37,604 bases of DNA from Sulfurimonas sp. (GTDB taxonomy: Bacteria; Campylobacterota; Campylobacteria; Campylobacterales; Sulfurimonadaceae): assembly GCA_027063745.1 (NCBI GenBank), contig JAMORG010000056.1:1-37604 (forward strand). Reading direction: 5' to 3'. Each line of letters opens with the position of its first letter. Positions within the stretch are counted from its first letter, which is position 1. Positions 29,125 to 35,997 of the stretch are shown in pieces. The translations under genes and the position numbers were made by a program. The notes under the pieces are model-generated. The model ran no database searches and was not told the origin of the DNA. It was given only the letters and a program-made list of their open reading frames with translations.

Positions 29125-30009
29125 CTATTTTCTACTAACTAAAACCCCGCCAATTACAATAAGTGCAATACCTATAAAAGTTAAAATATCTGGAAAAGCA
29201 TCTCCCAACAGCCAGCCAAAACCAATTGCAAAAGGAATATTTGTATAACTTATCACCCCAACTATACTTAGATTTTTTGCTGAATATGCTTTGGTAAGCA
29301 ACCATTGAGAGAGTGTTGATATCAGGGCCATAAAGCCTATGAGCAAATAGATAAATAAACTATTCGGCAGTACAAAATGAGGAAACAAAAACTCCAAACT
29401 AACGGGAACATCTACATAAGGGGCCACCATAAACAAAAGTGCCGGTAAAAAACTTCCTACCGTAACAAAGGAAAGGACAATCACACGTGAGTCATAGATG
29501 TCTTTTATCTTCTTTATGGTCGTGTAAGCAGCTGCAGCAAAAAAACCACCCAAAACACCCAATATATGGATAAATGAAAAACTCATGCCAAATGGTTTAC
29601 TAATAAGCACTACCCCACTAAAACCAACCAAAAGGGCTATCACCGTTCGCATACGCAGTCGCTCGCCCAAAAGAAAAAAGGCAAGGATTGTAACAAAGAA
29701 AGGTGAAGTTTTATTCAGTGTTATCGCTTCACCTAAAGGAATCGTACCGATAGTATAAAAAAAGAGTATCATAGCCATAAACCCAAAAAGTCCACGAGTA
29801 AAGAGGAGATAGATCTTACCTCCTGTTAGTTTTGGAGGGGTATGTTTTAAGGCATATAAAATGATAAACAGACCCAAGATATTACGAAAAAAGACAACTT
29901 CAAGTGCAGGCATCTCCTGCGTGAGCATCTTTGTCAAAGCACCATTAAGTGCTGATATCAAAGCAGATGCCAGCATAAAAAGTATGCCATTATCAAGATT
30001 TTTCAACAC
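29125..30009 (-). CDS. EamA/DMT-family transporter
   Basis: A 294-aa membrane protein with ten predicted helices in two EamA repeats (about 10-140 and 150-292). LEVVFFRNILGLFIILYAL in the first half and ANLSIVGVISYTNIPFAIGFGWLLG-like sequence in the second half are typical of drug/metabolite transporters. The substrate is not predictable. The start is GTG at 30009, with GAGG six bases upstream, overlapping the end of the Pif1-like gene by 7 bases. Confidence 0.85.
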   Translation of the reverse strand: MLKNLDNGILFMLASALISALNGALTKMLTQEMPALEVVFFRNILGLFIILYALKHTPPKLTGGKIYLLFTRGLFGFMAMILFFYTIGTIPLGEAITLNKTSPFFVTILAFFLLGERLRMRTVIALLVGFSGVVLISKPFGMSFSFIHILGVLGGFFAAAAYTTIKKIKDIYDSRVIVLSFVTVGSFLPALLFMVAPYVDVPVSLEFLFPHFVLPNSLFIYLLIGFMALISTLSQWLLTKAYSAKNLSIVGVISYTNIPFAIGFGWLLGDAFPDILTFIGIALIVIGGVLVSRK

Positions 30010-31268
30010 TCTTCACCTCGCACAAATGCCATCGCTTTTGGGTGCACATAAGCCAGCTCATACCACTGTCTCTGTGGTGCTATAAGTATGAGACTCTTAG
30101 GGTTACAAGAACGCGAAAGTGCAACATAGAACTGCGAAGGTGCGAAGATCTCACGCGTCTCTATTATAAGATTTTCAATACTCATTCCCTGCGATTTATG
30201 AATGGTAATGGCAAAAGCAAGTTTAACAGGGTACTGATAAACACTAAAACGCTCCTCTTCAACAAGCTCTTTTTTCCCTTTTAGCGTTTTTTCTTGCCAC
30301 TCGCTCTTACTCTGTGCCACCTGCTCGAGCTTCACTACCTTACCATCACTCTTTTGCACATAAAGATAGCTCGCATCGACATTGACAATCTCTCCACGCT
30401 CTCCGTTGTAATAGTTCCATGCATTGCGGGTAAAGAGTACAGGTGCACCCACTTTTAGCTCAAGAGTTGCTTCAATACGAGCATCTTGCATAAAGCGTTC
30501 TATCTCTTTGTCACTTACACTCTTTTTATGTTTGACAATCTGTGCCTCTTTATAAAAGTGCTCTCCATCTATCTCTTTTAACTGCTCTTTGTTGTGGTAT
30601 GATGCAGAAATATTTTTTCCAAACAAAAAAGTGTACTCACGCAGCTCATTTGGCAGTGGTTTTATAAAGCCGTTTAGAGCATTATGAATAGACTCATCTA
30701 TAGAGCCAAAACGTACAGCGTGCAGCAGTTCTATAAACTCCTTGTCATCTGTTCTATAAATATGTGTCAACTCAATCTTTACAAATTCACATAACGCCCA
30801 TGCAGCCGACTCAAAGGCGAAGTGTACTTCATTACGCCCACGCACAACAGGCGGCAGCTGTAAAAAATCACCAACCACAAGCAAGGCACCCTTAAACTCC
30901 GACTGCTGAAGTCGTAAAAGTATCATCTCAAAAAGTTTGTCACTTACCATGGATATCTCATCAATAACAATAAGATCCATAGAATATATAAGCTTCTTTA
31001 CTTTTTTCTTTGGTTCAAACTTACCATTTCTCTCCAACGCATCTACATCATCGGCAATCCCAAGATCAAAGAAACTGTGCAGTGTCTGTCCACCGATAAG
31101 TGTCGCAGCCATGCCGGTAGATGCCAGTTTAGCCACCTTTTTAGCTTCAGATTCATATGCAGCTATGAGTTCTCGTGTCAAGGTCGTTTTACCAACCCCT
31201 GCACCACCGGTTAAAAAAACATTACGTCCATTTTGTAAGTGAGATAGAGTTTTCTCTTTGTAATTCAT
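30003..31268 (-). CDS. Pif1-like SF1B DNA helicase
   Basis: A 421-aa helicase. The Walker A motif is GGAGVGKT (21-28), Walker B is VIDEIS (101-106) and motif III is GDFLQLPP (133-140). A C-terminal UvrD-like motif IHKSQGMS and ALSRSCNPKSL close the second RecA lobe. It lacks the extra domains of eukaryotic Pif1 and of RecD. Bacterial Pif1-like proteins unwind 5'-tailed DNA, G-quadruplexes and R-loops. The ATG lies 6 bases after a TACTAT -10 box without a ribosome site, suggesting a leaderless message. It is followed by the EamA gene with a 7-base overlap. Confidence 0.9.
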   Translation of the reverse strand: MNYKEKTLSHLQNGRNVFLTGGAGVGKTTLTRELIAAYESEAKKVAKLASTGMAATLIGGQTLHSFFDLGIADDVDALERNGKFEPKKKVKKLIYSMDLIVIDEISMVSDKLFEMILLRLQQSEFKGALLVVGDFLQLPPVVRGRNEVHFAFESAAWALCEFVKIELTHIYRTDDKEFIELLHAVRFGSIDESIHNALNGFIKPLPNELREYTFLFGKNISASYHNKEQLKEIDGEHFYKEAQIVKHKKSVSDKEIERFMQDARIEATLELKVGAPVLFTRNAWNYYNGERGEIVNVDASYLYVQKSDGKVVKLEQVAQSKSEWQEKTLKGKKELVEEERFSVYQYPVKLAFAITIHKSQGMSIENLIIETREIFAPSQFYVALSRSCNPKSLILIAPQRQWYELAYVHPKAMAFVRGEEC

Positions 31269-31346: not shown

Positions 31347-32615
31347 ATGCAAAACGAAGAAACACGCCAACGCATTCTTGTTGTTGAAGACAATAAAACA
31401 CTAGCAAAACTAATAGCTAAAAAGATTGAAAATGCTTTAGATATGGATGTTGATGTGGCCTTTTCTCTTGCTGAAACCAAACTTTTTCTAGCTAGATACA
31501 AATACTTCATAACGCTGCTTGACATAAATCTTCCCGATGCCCCGGATGGTGAAGTAGTTGACTATGCAATAAGTAAAAAAAATCACGTTATCGTCTTAAG
31601 TGCAAATATAGACAAAGATTTCCGTAAAAAAATGCTTCAAAAGAGTATTATCGATTATGTCAACAAAGGTGGAACCGGAGATATTGACTATATCATTCAC
31701 ACCATCAAACGCCTCCAAAAAAACAAAAACCATAAAGTTCTTGTAGTTGATGATGCGATGATGTTTCGAAAACAGATGCAGGGTATTTTGGAAAATCTCT
31801 TTTTTGAGGTTATTACTGTTGCTCACGGAGAAGAGGCACTTGGTATGTTACAGGCAAAACCCGACATCTCCTTAGTCCTTACAGACTATAATATGCCTGT
31901 TATGGACGGACTTGAACTCACATATGAGATTCGTAAAACCTACTCAAAAGATGAACTCTCCATTTTGGCACTCTCAGGAAATGATGATGAAGAAGTAACT
32001 GCACTCTTTTTAAAACATGGTGCCAATGACTATATCAAAAAACCCTTTTCAAAAGAGGAGTTTTCAGTTCGTGTAAATAACACTATTGAGGCTTTGGAAA
32101 ACATTCAGACCATTATGCACTATGCAAACCGTGACTACCTTACAGGGCTTTACAATCGCCGCTACTTTTTTGAGTCTATGCAGGAGTATATTGAAGATGT
32201 CAAAGAGAGTGGTGAAAAATTTGCTGTGGCAATGCTTGATATAGACCATTTTAAACAGGTCAATGATACCTATGGACATGACATCGGTGATAAAGTCATC
32301 ATCACACTTGCAGATATTTTACGAAGCTCAACCAATCCTCAAGATGTAGTGGCACGTTTTGGAGGAGAAGAGTTCTGTGTAGTGCTTAAAAATATCAACC
32401 GTTACAGTGCGCTCGATATCCTAGAGCGTATTCGCCAAACTGTAGAGTCTTATACGGTAGATGCGGGAAAAGGACAGTTTATCAACTTTACCATCTCTAT
32501 CGGTGCAGTTATCCATAAAGAAGAAAATGATCTTGAAGAGAGCATAAATGAAGCAGATATGTGTCTGTATAAAGCTAAAAACGGCGGTAGAAATCAGGTA
32601 GTCTTTGAAAGTTAA
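31347..32615 (+). CDS. Response regulator diguanylate cyclase, REC-REC-GGDEF
   Basis: A 422-aa soluble protein. REC1 (about 9-125) has E14/D15 and phospho-acceptor D59 (LLDINLPD). REC2 (about 130-250) has D135/D136, D180 (LTDYNMPVMDG) and the KKPF lysine. A GGDEF domain (about 258-422) has GGEEF at 339-343 and intact DIDHFKQVNDTYGHDIGD. The I-site is missing: the matching residues are NPQD. The family makes c-di-GMP when phosphorylated (PleD-like layout). No cognate kinase is adjacent. Its stop codon shares four bases with that of the facing VWA gene. Confidence 0.93.
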   Translation: MQNEETRQRILVVEDNKTLAKLIAKKIENALDMDVDVAFSLAETKLFLARYKYFITLLDINLPDAPDGEVVDYAISKKNHVIVLSANIDKDFRKKMLQKSIIDYVNKGGTGDIDYIIHTIKRLQKNKNHKVLVVDDAMMFRKQMQGILENLFFEVITVAHGEEALGMLQAKPDISLVLTDYNMPVMDGLELTYEIRKTYSKDELSILALSGNDDEEVTALFLKHGANDYIKKPFSKEEFSVRVNNTIEALENIQTIMHYANRDYLTGLYNRRYFFESMQEYIEDVKESGEKFAVAMLDIDHFKQVNDTYGHDIGDKVIITLADILRSSTNPQDVVARFGGEEFCVVLKNINRYSALDILERIRQTVESYTVDAGKGQFINFTISIGAVIHKEENDLEESINEADMCLYKAKNGGRNQVVFES

Positions 32616-33742
32616 TCTTCTACTAAAACTATCACCTCTCCAAAAGGAGTCTCACTCTCTTTTGGACTCACCCACTTCACACTAAAAGAGGGTTCTTCTT
32701 TTGGAAAAAATCCCTCTAAATCTGTGAAATAGAGCAGCAGTGCTACATCATCCAAGTGCTCCTCAATGTAGCCAAAGACAGGACGAAAGTCAGTTCCTCC
32801 AGCACCTTTGAGCTCAACTTCGAGACTCTCACCACTTAAAAATCTCTGATGGGAGTGAATCTTATCATCACACACAAGCAGATCTATAATGTAGTTTTGC
32901 GTATGCTCCATAATGAAGTTCACTTCACTCAAAAAAGTATCGAGCAGCTCTTTATCTACCGAGCCAGAACTATCAACCGCAATAACAAGCCGAAATGTCT
33001 CTGAGATGGATAAAGGAAGATATATCCCCTTATAGAGCAGTTTTTTTGATGGCGGCATCACTACATAGTTGTCTCTAAAAAAAGGAGCTATCGCCTCACG
33101 CAGCTCCTCTCTCCAGTCTAGCTTTGCAAAACCGCTTATGTCAAAAAAACGCTCTATGGACTCCGGAGCCTCTCCGCTTTGCAGCTTTGACTCAAGCAGT
33201 GCTATGGCCTCCTCTGCAAAGAGCTGTTCTGCCAGTATCTCTTCTTGGAGCTGCTCTTGTGTTTGTTGCCTCTGTTGATTTTCTTGTGGTTCTACATCAT
33301 CACTGCTATTGGCTTCATACTCAAGATCTTCATCATCACGCAGTATGTCACTCTTTAGCTCTGCATATATCTCTTCGGCATACATACCACTGAAACGTTT
33401 TCTATACTGCGCACCATAAGGCATTGTCATACCATTTTGCAGCAGCATATCATTGATGGCAATATCTGTTGCCATCTGCCACAACCAGCCACTTCTATTG
33501 TTTTTACGCTGCTCGTGCACCAAGGCTGCATGCATGGCACCGTTTGCCAAGACAAACTCTAGCTCATCGAGTTCAAGCTCACGCAGATACTCCTCTCGAA
33601 ACTCAAGCTTTTTTCCATCACTTTTAAAGCTCTCCAAATCATCATTGACAACTAACTCCAGTCTTGAGGCAAGTGTACCAAAGTATGGATACTCTACTAA
33701 AAGTTTTGCTTTTGCCTTAGATATTTTCTCTTGTGTTGTCAT
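32612..33742 (-). CDS. VWA-like/DUF2201 protein with degenerate metallopeptidase motif
   Basis: A 376-aa soluble protein, third gene of a three-gene operon. The N-terminal putative metallopeptidase region (about 1-130) keeps H71 and H76, R79 and the downstream A91-x-D93-x3-N97 pattern. But residues 67-71 are NGAMH where HExxH would be expected, so His and Glu are replaced. An acidic Gln/Glu-rich linker follows (about 135-175). The C-terminal VWA domain (about 250-376) has an intact MIDAS: D257-S259-S261, T317 (GGTDF) and D341 (TDLEG). Members pair with MoxR ATPases, thought to remodel or load metal-dependent assemblies. Start: ATG 3 bases after the MoxR stop. A pseudo-peptidase adaptor is the best guess. 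Confidence 0.83.
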   Translation of the reverse strand: MTTQEKISKAKAKLLVEYPYFGTLASRLELVVNDDLESFKSDGKKLEFREEYLRELELDELEFVLANGAMHAALVHEQRKNNRSGWLWQMATDIAINDMLLQNGMTMPYGAQYRKRFSGMYAEEIYAELKSDILRDDEDLEYEANSSDDVEPQENQQRQQTQEQLQEEILAEQLFAEEAIALLESKLQSGEAPESIERFFDISGFAKLDWREELREAIAPFFRDNYVVMPPSKKLLYKGIYLPLSISETFRLVIAVDSSGSVDKELLDTFLSEVNFIMEHTQNYIIDLLVCDDKIHSHQRFLSGESLEVELKGAGGTDFRPVFGYIEEHLDDVALLLYFTDLEGFFPKEEPSFSVKWVSPKESETPFGEVIVLVED

Positions 33743-33745
33743 TTT

Positions 33746-34741
33746 CTATGCAAGCAGATATGCAAACTGCTCCACCCATTTTTTAAATGCTGCCAAGTGT
33801 TCCATCTTCACACCCTCACGCTGCATATCCTGCACAATAAGCACGGCAAACTCACCTTGAAGACCAAGCGTATAGTTAAGGATATTTACCAGCTTTTCAT
33901 CATCTGGATTTTGCAAGTAATGACTTACCACTCCAGAACTTAGCGCATAGAGCACATCTATCTCACTTGGATACTCACGCACGCTACCTGATGCGATGGC
34001 TGTAATATCTGGCAGTCTGTCCATCACCCTGATAAAAGAGAGAAAACTCACAGCCACCTCACGCCCAACAGCTCCGGCAATGACATCAAGTAGTAATGAA
34101 GCCTCGATGCCACTTTGTAAGATGTTATGCACATACTCCCAAGATCTTGGTGTTGCAAAGCTCTTTTGCTGTTTTTTTGCATCGAAGGTAAAGAGGTGCT
34201 CACTTTTGTAGCTAATGTAAGCGATAATGCGTGCATCTATACCAACACCATAAGCCCAGCTACGCCAATCTTCAACACTCACTTCAAGTTCAAAGTGTAC
34301 AAAACGGTTTGCCAAGGGAGCTGGCATCTTGTAAGTAACACCTCTGTCACTCTCTCTGTTTCCAGCAGCAACGATTGCCCAACCATCAGGAAGGCGATAC
34401 TCTCCTATGGCTCTGTCAAGTATGAGCTGATAGGCTGAAGACTGCACAGCAGGAGCAGCGGAGTTGAGCTCATCTAAGAACAAAATCCCCTCTCCCTCGC
34501 GCGGCAAAAATGCAGGTGGTGCCCAAAGAGCCGAATGACTCTCTTTGTCATAAAAAGGAATACCTTTTAAATCGGTCGGGTCCATCAAAGCAAGACGCAG
34601 GTCTATAAAACCGATGCTTCTCTCTTTTGCAATGCTCTTTACAATGGAGGACTTCCCAATACCCGGTGCTCCCCACAAAAATGTCGGAACCTTCTGAACT
34701 ACCAAAGCCTCCAGGGCTTTTGTTACTTCACTTGCTCTCAT
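33746..34741 (-). CDS. MoxR-family AAA+ ATPase
   Basis: A 331-aa ATPase with Walker A GAPGIGKS (24-31), Walker B ILFLDE (86-91), sensor 1 N128 (VAAGNRE) and a likely arginine finger R146 (LANRFVHF). A C-terminal helical lid follows. I chose the ATG at 34741: its ATGA overlaps the stop of the upstream repeat gene, and AGGA lies 8 bases before it. The in-frame ATG at 34750 overlaps that site instead. MoxR proteins act as chaperones together with VWA partners, here encoded directly downstream. It forms an operon with coupled translation. Confidence 0.9.
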   Translation of the reverse strand: MRASEVTKALEALVVQKVPTFLWGAPGIGKSSIVKSIAKERSIGFIDLRLALMDPTDLKGIPFYDKESHSALWAPPAFLPREGEGILFLDELNSAAPAVQSSAYQLILDRAIGEYRLPDGWAIVAAGNRESDRGVTYKMPAPLANRFVHFELEVSVEDWRSWAYGVGIDARIIAYISYKSEHLFTFDAKKQQKSFATPRSWEYVHNILQSGIEASLLLDVIAGAVGREVAVSFLSFIRVMDRLPDITAIASGSVREYPSEIDVLYALSSGVVSHYLQNPDDEKLVNILNYTLGLQGEFAVLIVQDMQREGVKMEHLAAFKKWVEQFAYLLA

Positions 34742-35985
34742 ACTAACCATCCTATATTCTGGCTTTGAATATGTTTTCCAAAAGCGGCATTTGTTCGTAC
34801 AGCCCGCTCAAAACGGCTATCTAGTTGAAGTTGGTAGAGGATATCCACCGGTGTTGCCTCATTGGCTGCCAAGGCTGCTAAAACCATCTCATCTCCCTCA
34901 CTGTAAAGAGCCTCTAAGATATCTGGCGGTGTTGCACTGTTTTGTGCGAGGCTGTAATGCAACTCTTTGTTGGCATATGCCTCACGCAGCTTCTGCTCAG
35001 CCATTGCAGGGTTTTTAAAAAGTAGCGCTTTTATCTCACTGTCTGCTTCTTCTAACATCTCTTCTACAACGCTGCCAAAGAGAGCTTCATTTTGAGCCAG
35101 TCCATGCAATACTTCTTCGCTCTTATTTTCTAAAAGTACTCTTTGCATCGCTTCATCTAAAGAGCTGTTATGTGCCAGATCTGTGCTCCACTCTTGCAGC
35201 TCTTCAAAAAGCTCACTATCAAGTGTTATGTTCTGTGCAATCTGGCGTACATAAGGCTCACCCATTGCTATAAGCTCTTTGGCTATTATCTTATCAAGCA
35301 GGGCATTGGAACTCATCGCTTCTAAAACTGCCTCATCTGCCTCACGCAAGAGTTTTTTAAGTACTTTTTTGGGGCTTTGGGGGTGTTGTGCCAGCAGTAC
35401 TTTTATCTTTGGGTGATAGCCAAGTGGCTCTAACTTGCTAACAGCCTCTAAAAGCTGTGGATTTTGTGTCTGAGAGAGAAGATGAATAAGCCCCGTAGTT
35501 GCATACTGTACATTATGGTTTCGCTCTATGTTTTCATAAAAACGCCCAATGAGTGCTGCTGTCACATCACGGTTGTCATCATTTTCAAAGAAGTCCTCAC
35601 CACTCCACTTGTACATCTCTAAAAGTTTAAAGAAGAGCTCATCAGAGATGGTACTGTTTTGCAAAAAGCTCTTAAGACGCTCTTTGTCATTGGAGAGTTT
35701 GAGACTCATCAAAAGCACATTATCATCAATACTCTTTGCAAGTGCTGCTTCAAAAGTATCTATCTCTAAAAAAACAAAGCCACCCTTTTCATAAAGCTCA
35801 TCTGAGAGATTTTGCTCATAAGGGGTCATCATACGCCCCTCCAAGATGGTATCTATCTCATCGCTTAGCTCTTTTGTTACACTTATGTTCCGGCTTGCTA
35901 GTTGTGCATCGAACTCCTCTTGGCTAAATGCTCGTGGCTTACCTAAGAGGAGTATGGTCTTGTCTTTGTAGCTATCTAAATTCAT
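34738..35985 (-). CDS. BRCT-like and LRV-type helical repeat protein, first gene of the MoxR/VWA operon
   Basis: A 415-aa soluble acidic protein without signal peptide. The N-terminus (about 8-60: TILLLGKPRAFSQEEFDAQL...) resembles a BRCT domain. The C-terminal half (about 192-402) is about eight imperfect repeats of ~24 residues. Examples of the repeat core are LLAQHPQSPKKVLKKL, LFKNPAMAEQKLREA, LAQNSATPPDILEAL and LAANEATPVDILYQL, matching variant leucine-rich/LRV or related alpha-solenoid repeats. Such surfaces bind proteins. The start has no ribosome site and lies 6 bases after TATAAT, so the mRNA is probably leaderless. The gene overlaps MoxR by 4 bases (ATGA). It is likely the recognition or scaffold part of the three-protein module. 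Function unknown. Confidence 0.75.
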   Translation of the reverse strand: MNLDSYKDKTILLLGKPRAFSQEEFDAQLASRNISVTKELSDEIDTILEGRMMTPYEQNLSDELYEKGGFVFLEIDTFEAALAKSIDDNVLLMSLKLSNDKERLKSFLQNSTISDELFFKLLEMYKWSGEDFFENDDNRDVTAALIGRFYENIERNHNVQYATTGLIHLLSQTQNPQLLEAVSKLEPLGYHPKIKVLLAQHPQSPKKVLKKLLREADEAVLEAMSSNALLDKIIAKELIAMGEPYVRQIAQNITLDSELFEELQEWSTDLAHNSSLDEAMQRVLLENKSEEVLHGLAQNEALFGSVVEEMLEEADSEIKALLFKNPAMAEQKLREAYANKELHYSLAQNSATPPDILEALYSEGDEMVLAALAANEATPVDILYQLQLDSRFERAVRTNAAFGKHIQSQNIGWLV

Positions 35986-35991
35986 AAAGTG

Positions 35992-35997
35992 ATTATA
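35992..35997 (-). promoter_or_regulatory. -10 box of the LRV/MoxR/VWA operon, leaderless
   Basis: AGTATAAT on the minus strand, followed by CACTTT and the ATG at 35985. The A of the start codon is at the expected +1. No ribosome site is possible. Confidence 0.55.

Follow-up and report, generated by a model that had tools for sequence, protein, structure and literature searches.

A BRCT-LRV protein encoded with a MoxR ATPase and a DUF2201-VWA protein in Sulfurimonas: a candidate client-recognition subunit of a MoxR-VWA machine

The minus strand of a 37,604-nucleotide (nt) stretch of Sulfurimonas sp. DNA (contig JAMORG010000056.1, hereafter the window), for which Sulfurimonas indica is the closest named relative among the collected genomes, carries at 35985-32612 three tightly coupled genes that encode, in order, a BRCT-LRV protein, a MoxR AAA+ ATPase and a DUF2201-VWA protein, and that form one operon (Table 1). 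We propose that this operon specifies a dedicated, client-specific MoxR-VWA remodelling or maturation chaperone in which the BRCT-LRV protein would be the client-recognition subunit, a reading to which we assign a probability of about 0.6. A MoxR-VWA machine with a third component is the known part of this arrangement, and the BRCT-LRV protein as that third component is the new part. The combination appears undescribed, in keeping with the preliminary description of this DNA, which had found it unfamiliar: text searches of the open-access literature (subscription journals being outside their scope) found no paper that joins BRCT, LRV and MoxR and none that describes DUF2201 in connection with MoxR. 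Genome comparison provides the best evidence for joint action of the three genes, which are co-inherited without strict linkage.

Co-inheritance of the three genes

The survey covered 200 Campylobacterota genomes, together with 80 named loci from a scan with a subset of the BRCT-LRV sequences. A full BRCT-LRV gene is present in 20 other genomes of the 200, and the VWA gene is present in 20/20 of these (Fisher 1.4e-25, uncorrected for phylogeny), whereas the two genomes that hold VWA only (G060 and G122) contain just paralogous VWA types. The repeat gene is thus conserved with the MoxR/VWA pair in related genomes, a point on which the preliminary description had staked its proposal. MoxR is the next gene after the BRCT-LRV gene in all of the 80 named loci whose contig continues. 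The VWA gene usually follows MoxR directly, at times beyond an insertion of up to ~6 kb. Five loci lack it downstream, and in 5/5 of their genomes it is located elsewhere (57-68% identity), two of these copies having one in-frame stop within the aligned portion. Genomes G047 and G177, both among the 20, have an unlinked BRCT-LRV gene and a divergent VWA gene; the MoxR gene beside the divergent VWA gene of G177 is truncated and inverted. In divergent families the trio is flanked by different genes and yet holds together.

Within the Sulfurimonadaceae, conserved housekeeping synteny extends beyond the trio to AhpC, EamA, the helicase, the GGDEF regulator and NhaA. No LRV or VWA gene was detected in two of the nine Sulfurimonas genomes, of which one (G015, locus L193) still has AhpC, EamA and the helicase in place and the other (G027, L194) EamA and the helicase. 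Neither genome gave a match to NhaA, and the GGDEF regulator had none within the stretches fetched around L193 and L194. A full-length BRCT-LRV gene was found in none of the 72,556 plasmids (one weak repeat-only match), 50,697 phages and viral contigs scanned, and a mobile or viral origin of the gene was rejected on these grounds. Judged by its gene context, the locus is inherited vertically in housekeeping surroundings and not in a defence island.

The MoxR-VWA junction tolerates insertions in many relatives (L107, L108, L113, L126, L131, L139, L141, L142, L170, L174 and L176). Genes inserted at or beside MoxR/VWA include type III restriction-modification (RM) genes with or without Fic, Eco57I-like methylase and HepT/MNT genes, as well as ferritin-like, TerC-like, P-type ATPase-like, UDG-like and thioredoxin-like genes, several of these names being assigned from sequence alone. 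Because the inserted genes are mixed and not RM alone, the insertions look like those of a permissive spot.

Architecture of the proteins and the operon

An AlphaFold2 model of the BRCT-LRV protein, built on 65 natural sequences, has a mean predicted local distance difference test (pLDDT) score of 94.9 and exhibits a BRCT fold followed by an LRV solenoid, in agreement with the BRCT-like N-terminus and LRV-type repeats of the preliminary description. The DSSP order of residues 1-86, beta-alpha-beta-beta-alpha-beta-alpha, is that of BRCT domains, and the one in the bacterial DNA ligase DnlJ can be superposed on residues 2-84 with a Z of 9.3 and a root mean square deviation of 2.3 A over 77 residues (21% identity). 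The DnlJ BRCT is the top match, with the BRCTs of RFC1, XRCC1, PARP4, Rev1 and Pol mu ranking below, and about one-third of the 50 structural matches listed are BRCT domains at residues 1-92. The Foldseek ranking placed solenoids first, with no E <0.001 in the PDB; Pfam BRCT gave no match in any of the 20 BRCT-LRV members, even at E<=1, and searching PDB sequences with a profile of the BRCT-LRV alignment returned nothing useful. Because neither Pfam nor the Foldseek E-values lend support, the assignment rests on fold and topology, by which the confident model identifies residues 1-86 as a BRCT domain that is not a Pfam-level member of the family.

For the repeats, both an LRV profile and a solenoid fold were found. 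Similarity to LRV/LRV_2 and DUF2336 is weak in the window protein (Pfam), the LRV/LRV_2 matches of its relatives reach 1e-12 and 6.7e-11 with LRV_2 detected in 18/20, and the Azotobacter LRV protein (1lrv) is a structural match to residues 162-403 with a Z of 8.8 over 213 residues. Profile searches thus bear out the LRV assignment and not the BRCT one. The mean column entropy is 0.96 in the middle segment, 1.55 in the BRCT domain and 2.20 in the variable repeats; the middle segment (87-186) and the C-terminal tail are the most conserved parts of the protein, the BRCT domain is intermediate, and the repeats are the most variable in both sequence and number, with the lengths of the relatives clustering near 388, 414 and 448.

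The MoxR protein matches AAA_3 (1.9e-7) and AAA (5.5e-7) in Pfam and contains a Walker A motif (GxPGIGKS), a Walker B motif (LFLDE), sensor-1 N131 and Arg finger R149. As G27, G30-S34, D93-E94, N131 and R149 are invariant across 19 aligned MoxR proteins, paralogous types included, the alignment indicates that none of the AAA+ catalytic motifs is lost in MoxR.

The VWA protein matches DUF2201_N (PF13203, 2.6e-26) and DUF2201 (PF09967, 3.5e-24), both over the curated cut-off. The residues of its metal ion-dependent adhesion site (MIDAS), DxSxS..T..D, are invariant, and N67 and H71 of its metallopeptidase-like half are invariant in 51 VWA relatives. The motif of the window family is N[GA]xxHxxxxH, without the catalytic Glu, so that the HExxHxxxxH signature of an active zinc metallopeptidase is absent; this signature is present in the DUF2201 proteins of Burkholderiales, Synechocystis and Sphaerotilus plasmids. 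Most nearest paralogues have N[ACG]xxH; a third type retains HxxxH but not the Glu, and a fourth has lost nearly all of the motif. Because HE is replaced by N[GA], the metallopeptidase half is probably a pseudo-peptidase and not a protease. The metal-binding character earlier ascribed to the VWA product therefore stands for the intact MIDAS and not for the degenerate metallopeptidase motif, and the effector role ascribed to it finds no support in a protein of one constant two-domain architecture in 51 relatives, none with a variable effector domain. A structure search with the VWA model yielded generic VWA/I domain folds, with no MoxR-linked VWA structure among the 50 matches listed.

The three-part architecture and the MoxR-VWA pairing are supported by profile matches, the AlphaFold model and gene order, and the coordinates of the open reading frames confirm the tight coupling: the MoxR ATG at 34741 overlaps the stop of the BRCT-LRV gene as ATGA, and the gap between MoxR and the VWA gene is 3 bases. 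A single leaderless promoter had also been proposed for the operon. Of the 71 ATG-start relatives, 65 have an exact TATAAT whose first base lies at -13 to -11 (precisely at -12 in 55), compared with a mean of 0.5 and a maximum of 5 in a shuffled sequence control. The region from -55 to -16 shows merely 33% identity between loci, and no Shine-Dalgarno-like motif was found in 71 of 73 relatives (present in 2/73). In other families of the same loci, TATAAT lies near the start codon in 0-1% (MoxR, VWA, NhaA and AhpC) or 6% (GGDEF) of cases, the exceptions being the PIF1-like helicase family (~30%) and two small families (17-20%). The -10 box was assessed by this conservation and not by a consensus scan, which for sigma-70 promoters and terminators gave matches at chance level. 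Since TATAAT is conserved at a fixed position while the upstream sequence has otherwise diverged and Shine-Dalgarno sites are nearly absent, the leaderless promoter is very likely correct and is under selection.

At its downstream end the VWA gene reaches 4 bases into a convergent response-regulator/GGDEF gene (31347-32615), and at the other side the NhaA gene (36075) is divergent from the trio. A PIF1-like helicase gene lies at 30003-31268 of the window; in many loci this gene adjoins the trio, and in Sulfuricurvum-like genomes (L066 and L067) it overlaps the VWA gene by 8 nt.

Table 1. Positions in the window of the operon genes, the domains of their products and the predicted -10 box
Feature	Position	Strand	Remarks
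BRCT-LRV protein gene	34738..35985	-	415 aa
MoxR AAA+ ATPase gene	33746..34750	-	334 aa; 331 aa if ATG at 34741 used
DUF2201-VWA protein gene	32612..33742	-	376 aa; metallopeptidase-like N-terminal domain and VWA domain
BRCT fold, residues 1-86	35728..35985	-	model, fold match; G15, R18, E24, P55 invariant in 65 relatives
Helical middle segment, residues 87-186	35428..35727	-	MSLKL, NRDV, RNHNVQY motifs
LRV solenoid, residues 187-400	34786..35427	-	LRV profiles in relatives, fold match; repeat number variable
VWA domain with intact MIDAS (D257-S-S259-G-S261, T317, D341)	32624..32989	-	VWA folds, Z up to 13.6
Degenerate metallopeptidase motif N67-G-A-M-H71-AALV-H76	33515..33544	-	HExxHxxxxH in plasmid relatives
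-10 box TATAAT	35992..35997	-	ends 6 nt upstream of ATG; conserved

Related MoxR-DUF2201 pairs and known systems

At least three other MoxR-DUF2201 pairs occur in Campylobacterota, namely the nearest paralogue, a third type and a fourth type. The nearest paralogous pair (L081-L086; G143:C6, G176:C9, G116:C1:1538358, G060:C15, G191:C1:1555330 and G122:C1) is ~40% identical to the window pair in VWA and ~53% in MoxR. This pair lies 14-30 kb from nifH in 5/6 genomes, and nifH is present in 6/6 genomes that carry it, as opposed to 21/200 overall (hypergeometric 6.6e-7, uncorrected for phylogeny). In G116, a Crp-like regulator, alanine dehydrogenase, oxoacid oxidoreductase genes and nifK are found between the paralogous pair and nifH. 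A nitrogenase-related chaperone is a possible function for this pair, and its position gives a weak hint that sister pairs may serve metalloenzymes. The third type often has a 230-250-aa gene downstream. In the fourth type (L094:1221-5686, L095 and L096), a BspA-type LRR gene (~710-730 aa) stands directly before MoxR and a DUF2201 VWA gene whose product has almost wholly lost the metallopeptidase motif. These loci follow a three-part plan analogous to that of the window trio, with a repeat-scaffold gene directly upstream of the MoxR-VWA pair, but the repeats are LRR_5 and not BRCT-LRV, and the VWA protein is 25-29% identical.

ATPase-DUF2201 pairs are also found in N4-like and jumbo phages, with phage N4 (gp24-gp25, L185) and Bacillus phage AR9 (gp28-gp29, L187) as examples, and in many plasmids, among them Synechocystis pSYSA (L181) and those of Burkholderiales (L179 and L183); in phage records the DUF2201 proteins are often annotated 'HNH endonuclease' despite their VWA/DUF2201 match. 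As in the window, the ATPase (named MoxR in pSYSA) is followed by a DUF2201 VWA protein, with 22-36% identity to that of the window. The phage and plasmid pairs differ in that HExxHxxxxH is intact in 5/6 of the plasmid proteins aligned, no BRCT-LRV gene accompanies them, and the third gene is another one (in Cupriavidus, one with a weak match to DUF3150, E 0.0015) or absent. MoxR-VWA pairs thus repeatedly have a third gene at their side, be it a repeat scaffold or another, but BRCT-LRV is seen only with the window-type pair.

NorQ-NorD, CbbQ-CbbO and RavA-ViaA resemble the window pair in that a MoxR AAA+ protein is encoded with an intact-MIDAS VWA protein, and ring-and-finger mechanics are likely shared; unlike these, the window has a DUF2201-class VWA protein with a degenerate metallopeptidase domain and BRCT-LRV as a constant third gene. 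The Azotobacter vinelandii LRV protein (1LRV), which has an N-terminal 4Fe-4S domain, shares the LRV solenoid fold with the window protein, in which a BRCT domain takes the place of the 4Fe-4S domain and no cysteine is present. Kaur et al. 2020 (PMC7159879) proposed a conflict role for four types of MoxR-vWA ternary systems, with VMAP, iSTAND, FtsH and a beta-propeller. These likewise combine MoxR, vWA and a third conserved protein in one operon, but the third component of the window is none of the four, no effector is fused to its VWA protein, and it is inherited vertically in single-celled Campylobacterota. The bpMoxR profile reaches only 14.8 bits (cut-off 27).

Proposed mechanism and alternative explanations

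In the NorQ-NorD pair, ATP-driven rotation of the VWA protein in the MoxR ring remodels the client (PMC13036017). By analogy, the MoxR hexamer of the window would turn the VWA domain through ATP hydrolysis. Because the middle segment and tail of the BRCT-LRV protein are far more conserved than its repeats, the former would form the docking surface of the scaffold for MoxR-VWA and the latter a recognition surface, such that the BRCT domain and the variable LRV repeats may bind and choose the client. The dead metallopeptidase-like domain would serve as a binding and not a cleaving module, and the machine would assemble, activate or metallate a single specific client complex. Several results weigh against this proposal. 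A search for the client found none among the candidates tested (NhaA, the helicase and nitrogenase). NhaA was rejected as an obligate client, since three genomes with the trio (G133, G176 and G096) lack it and it is common among genomes without the trio. The PIF1-like helicase was rejected as a fourth component, as it is present in 114/200 genomes, mostly without the trio, and stays after trio loss. Nitrogenase as a client of the window trio has no support, with nifH in just 8/20 other trio genomes. Finally, the VWA protein model has a pLDDT of 76.7, and the DUF2201_N fold and the finger-in-pore contact are putative.

The alternative that fares best, although we consider it unlikely, is a DNA-directed machine, in line with the DNA contacts at which the preliminary description had hinted. 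Here the BRCT domain, like those of LigA and RFC1, would dock either on DNA, at an end or a nick, or on a repair protein that is phosphorylated, and a nucleoprotein complex would be remodelled by MoxR-VWA. The modelled fold is nearest to the DnlJ BRCT, with RFC1, XRCC1, Rev1 and Pol mu among the further matches, G15, R18, E24 and P55 are invariant, and the helicase gene adjoins or overlaps the trio as described above. BRCT domains, however, mediate plain protein-protein contacts too, and the distribution of the helicase implies that it is not a partner. The more specific version, in which BRCT would bring the ATPase onto nicked DNA or a repair or replication protein so that the machine acts on DNA-bound or phosphorylated targets, is more doubtful again. 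We know of no MoxR-VWA pair for which DNA- or phospho-target recruitment by BRCT is the mode of action.

A biological conflict (anti-phage) system, in which the LRV solenoid would recognise an invader, MoxR-VWA would rearrange the complex and an effector would act, is rather improbable. The precedent of the ternary systems (PMC7159879), the coordinated absence from two of nine Sulfurimonas genomes, the fast-evolving LRV repeats of varying number, and the type III RM, Fic, HepT/MNT and Eco57I-like genes beside MoxR or VWA in several loci are all consistent with such a role, which the preliminary description had entertained. It is not upheld by the remaining evidence: there is no effector domain or variable module, the best PADLOC match reaches 15.3 bits over the P-loop only and is not convincing, the BRCT-LRV gene is absent from the mobile and viral sequences scanned, inheritance is vertical in housekeeping synteny conserved within the Sulfurimonadaceae, and the mixture of ferritin, UDG-like, TerC-like and thioredoxin-like genes with RM at the insertions suggests a permissive spot. 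That the three genes are mere neighbours held by vertical synteny without a shared complex, as gene order conserved far past the trio in Sulfurimonas might suggest, is highly improbable given that the trio stays intact among different flanks in divergent families, that the VWA gene is kept even when unlinked (5/5 genomes), and that in G015 and G027 the trio is missing as a block while its neighbours remain.

We therefore favour the client-specific chaperone. To our knowledge, MoxR-VWA pairs are widespread, most without a known client and few with a known recognition subunit. The trio is carried by sulfur-oxidising bacteria related to Sulfurimonas, with a sister pair near nitrogenase genes, and its VWA protein represents a DUF2201 class in which the protease site is lost yet the fold is conserved. 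A strictly co-inherited BRCT-LRV protein with a confident model would provide a defined handle on client choice by MoxR-VWA machines.

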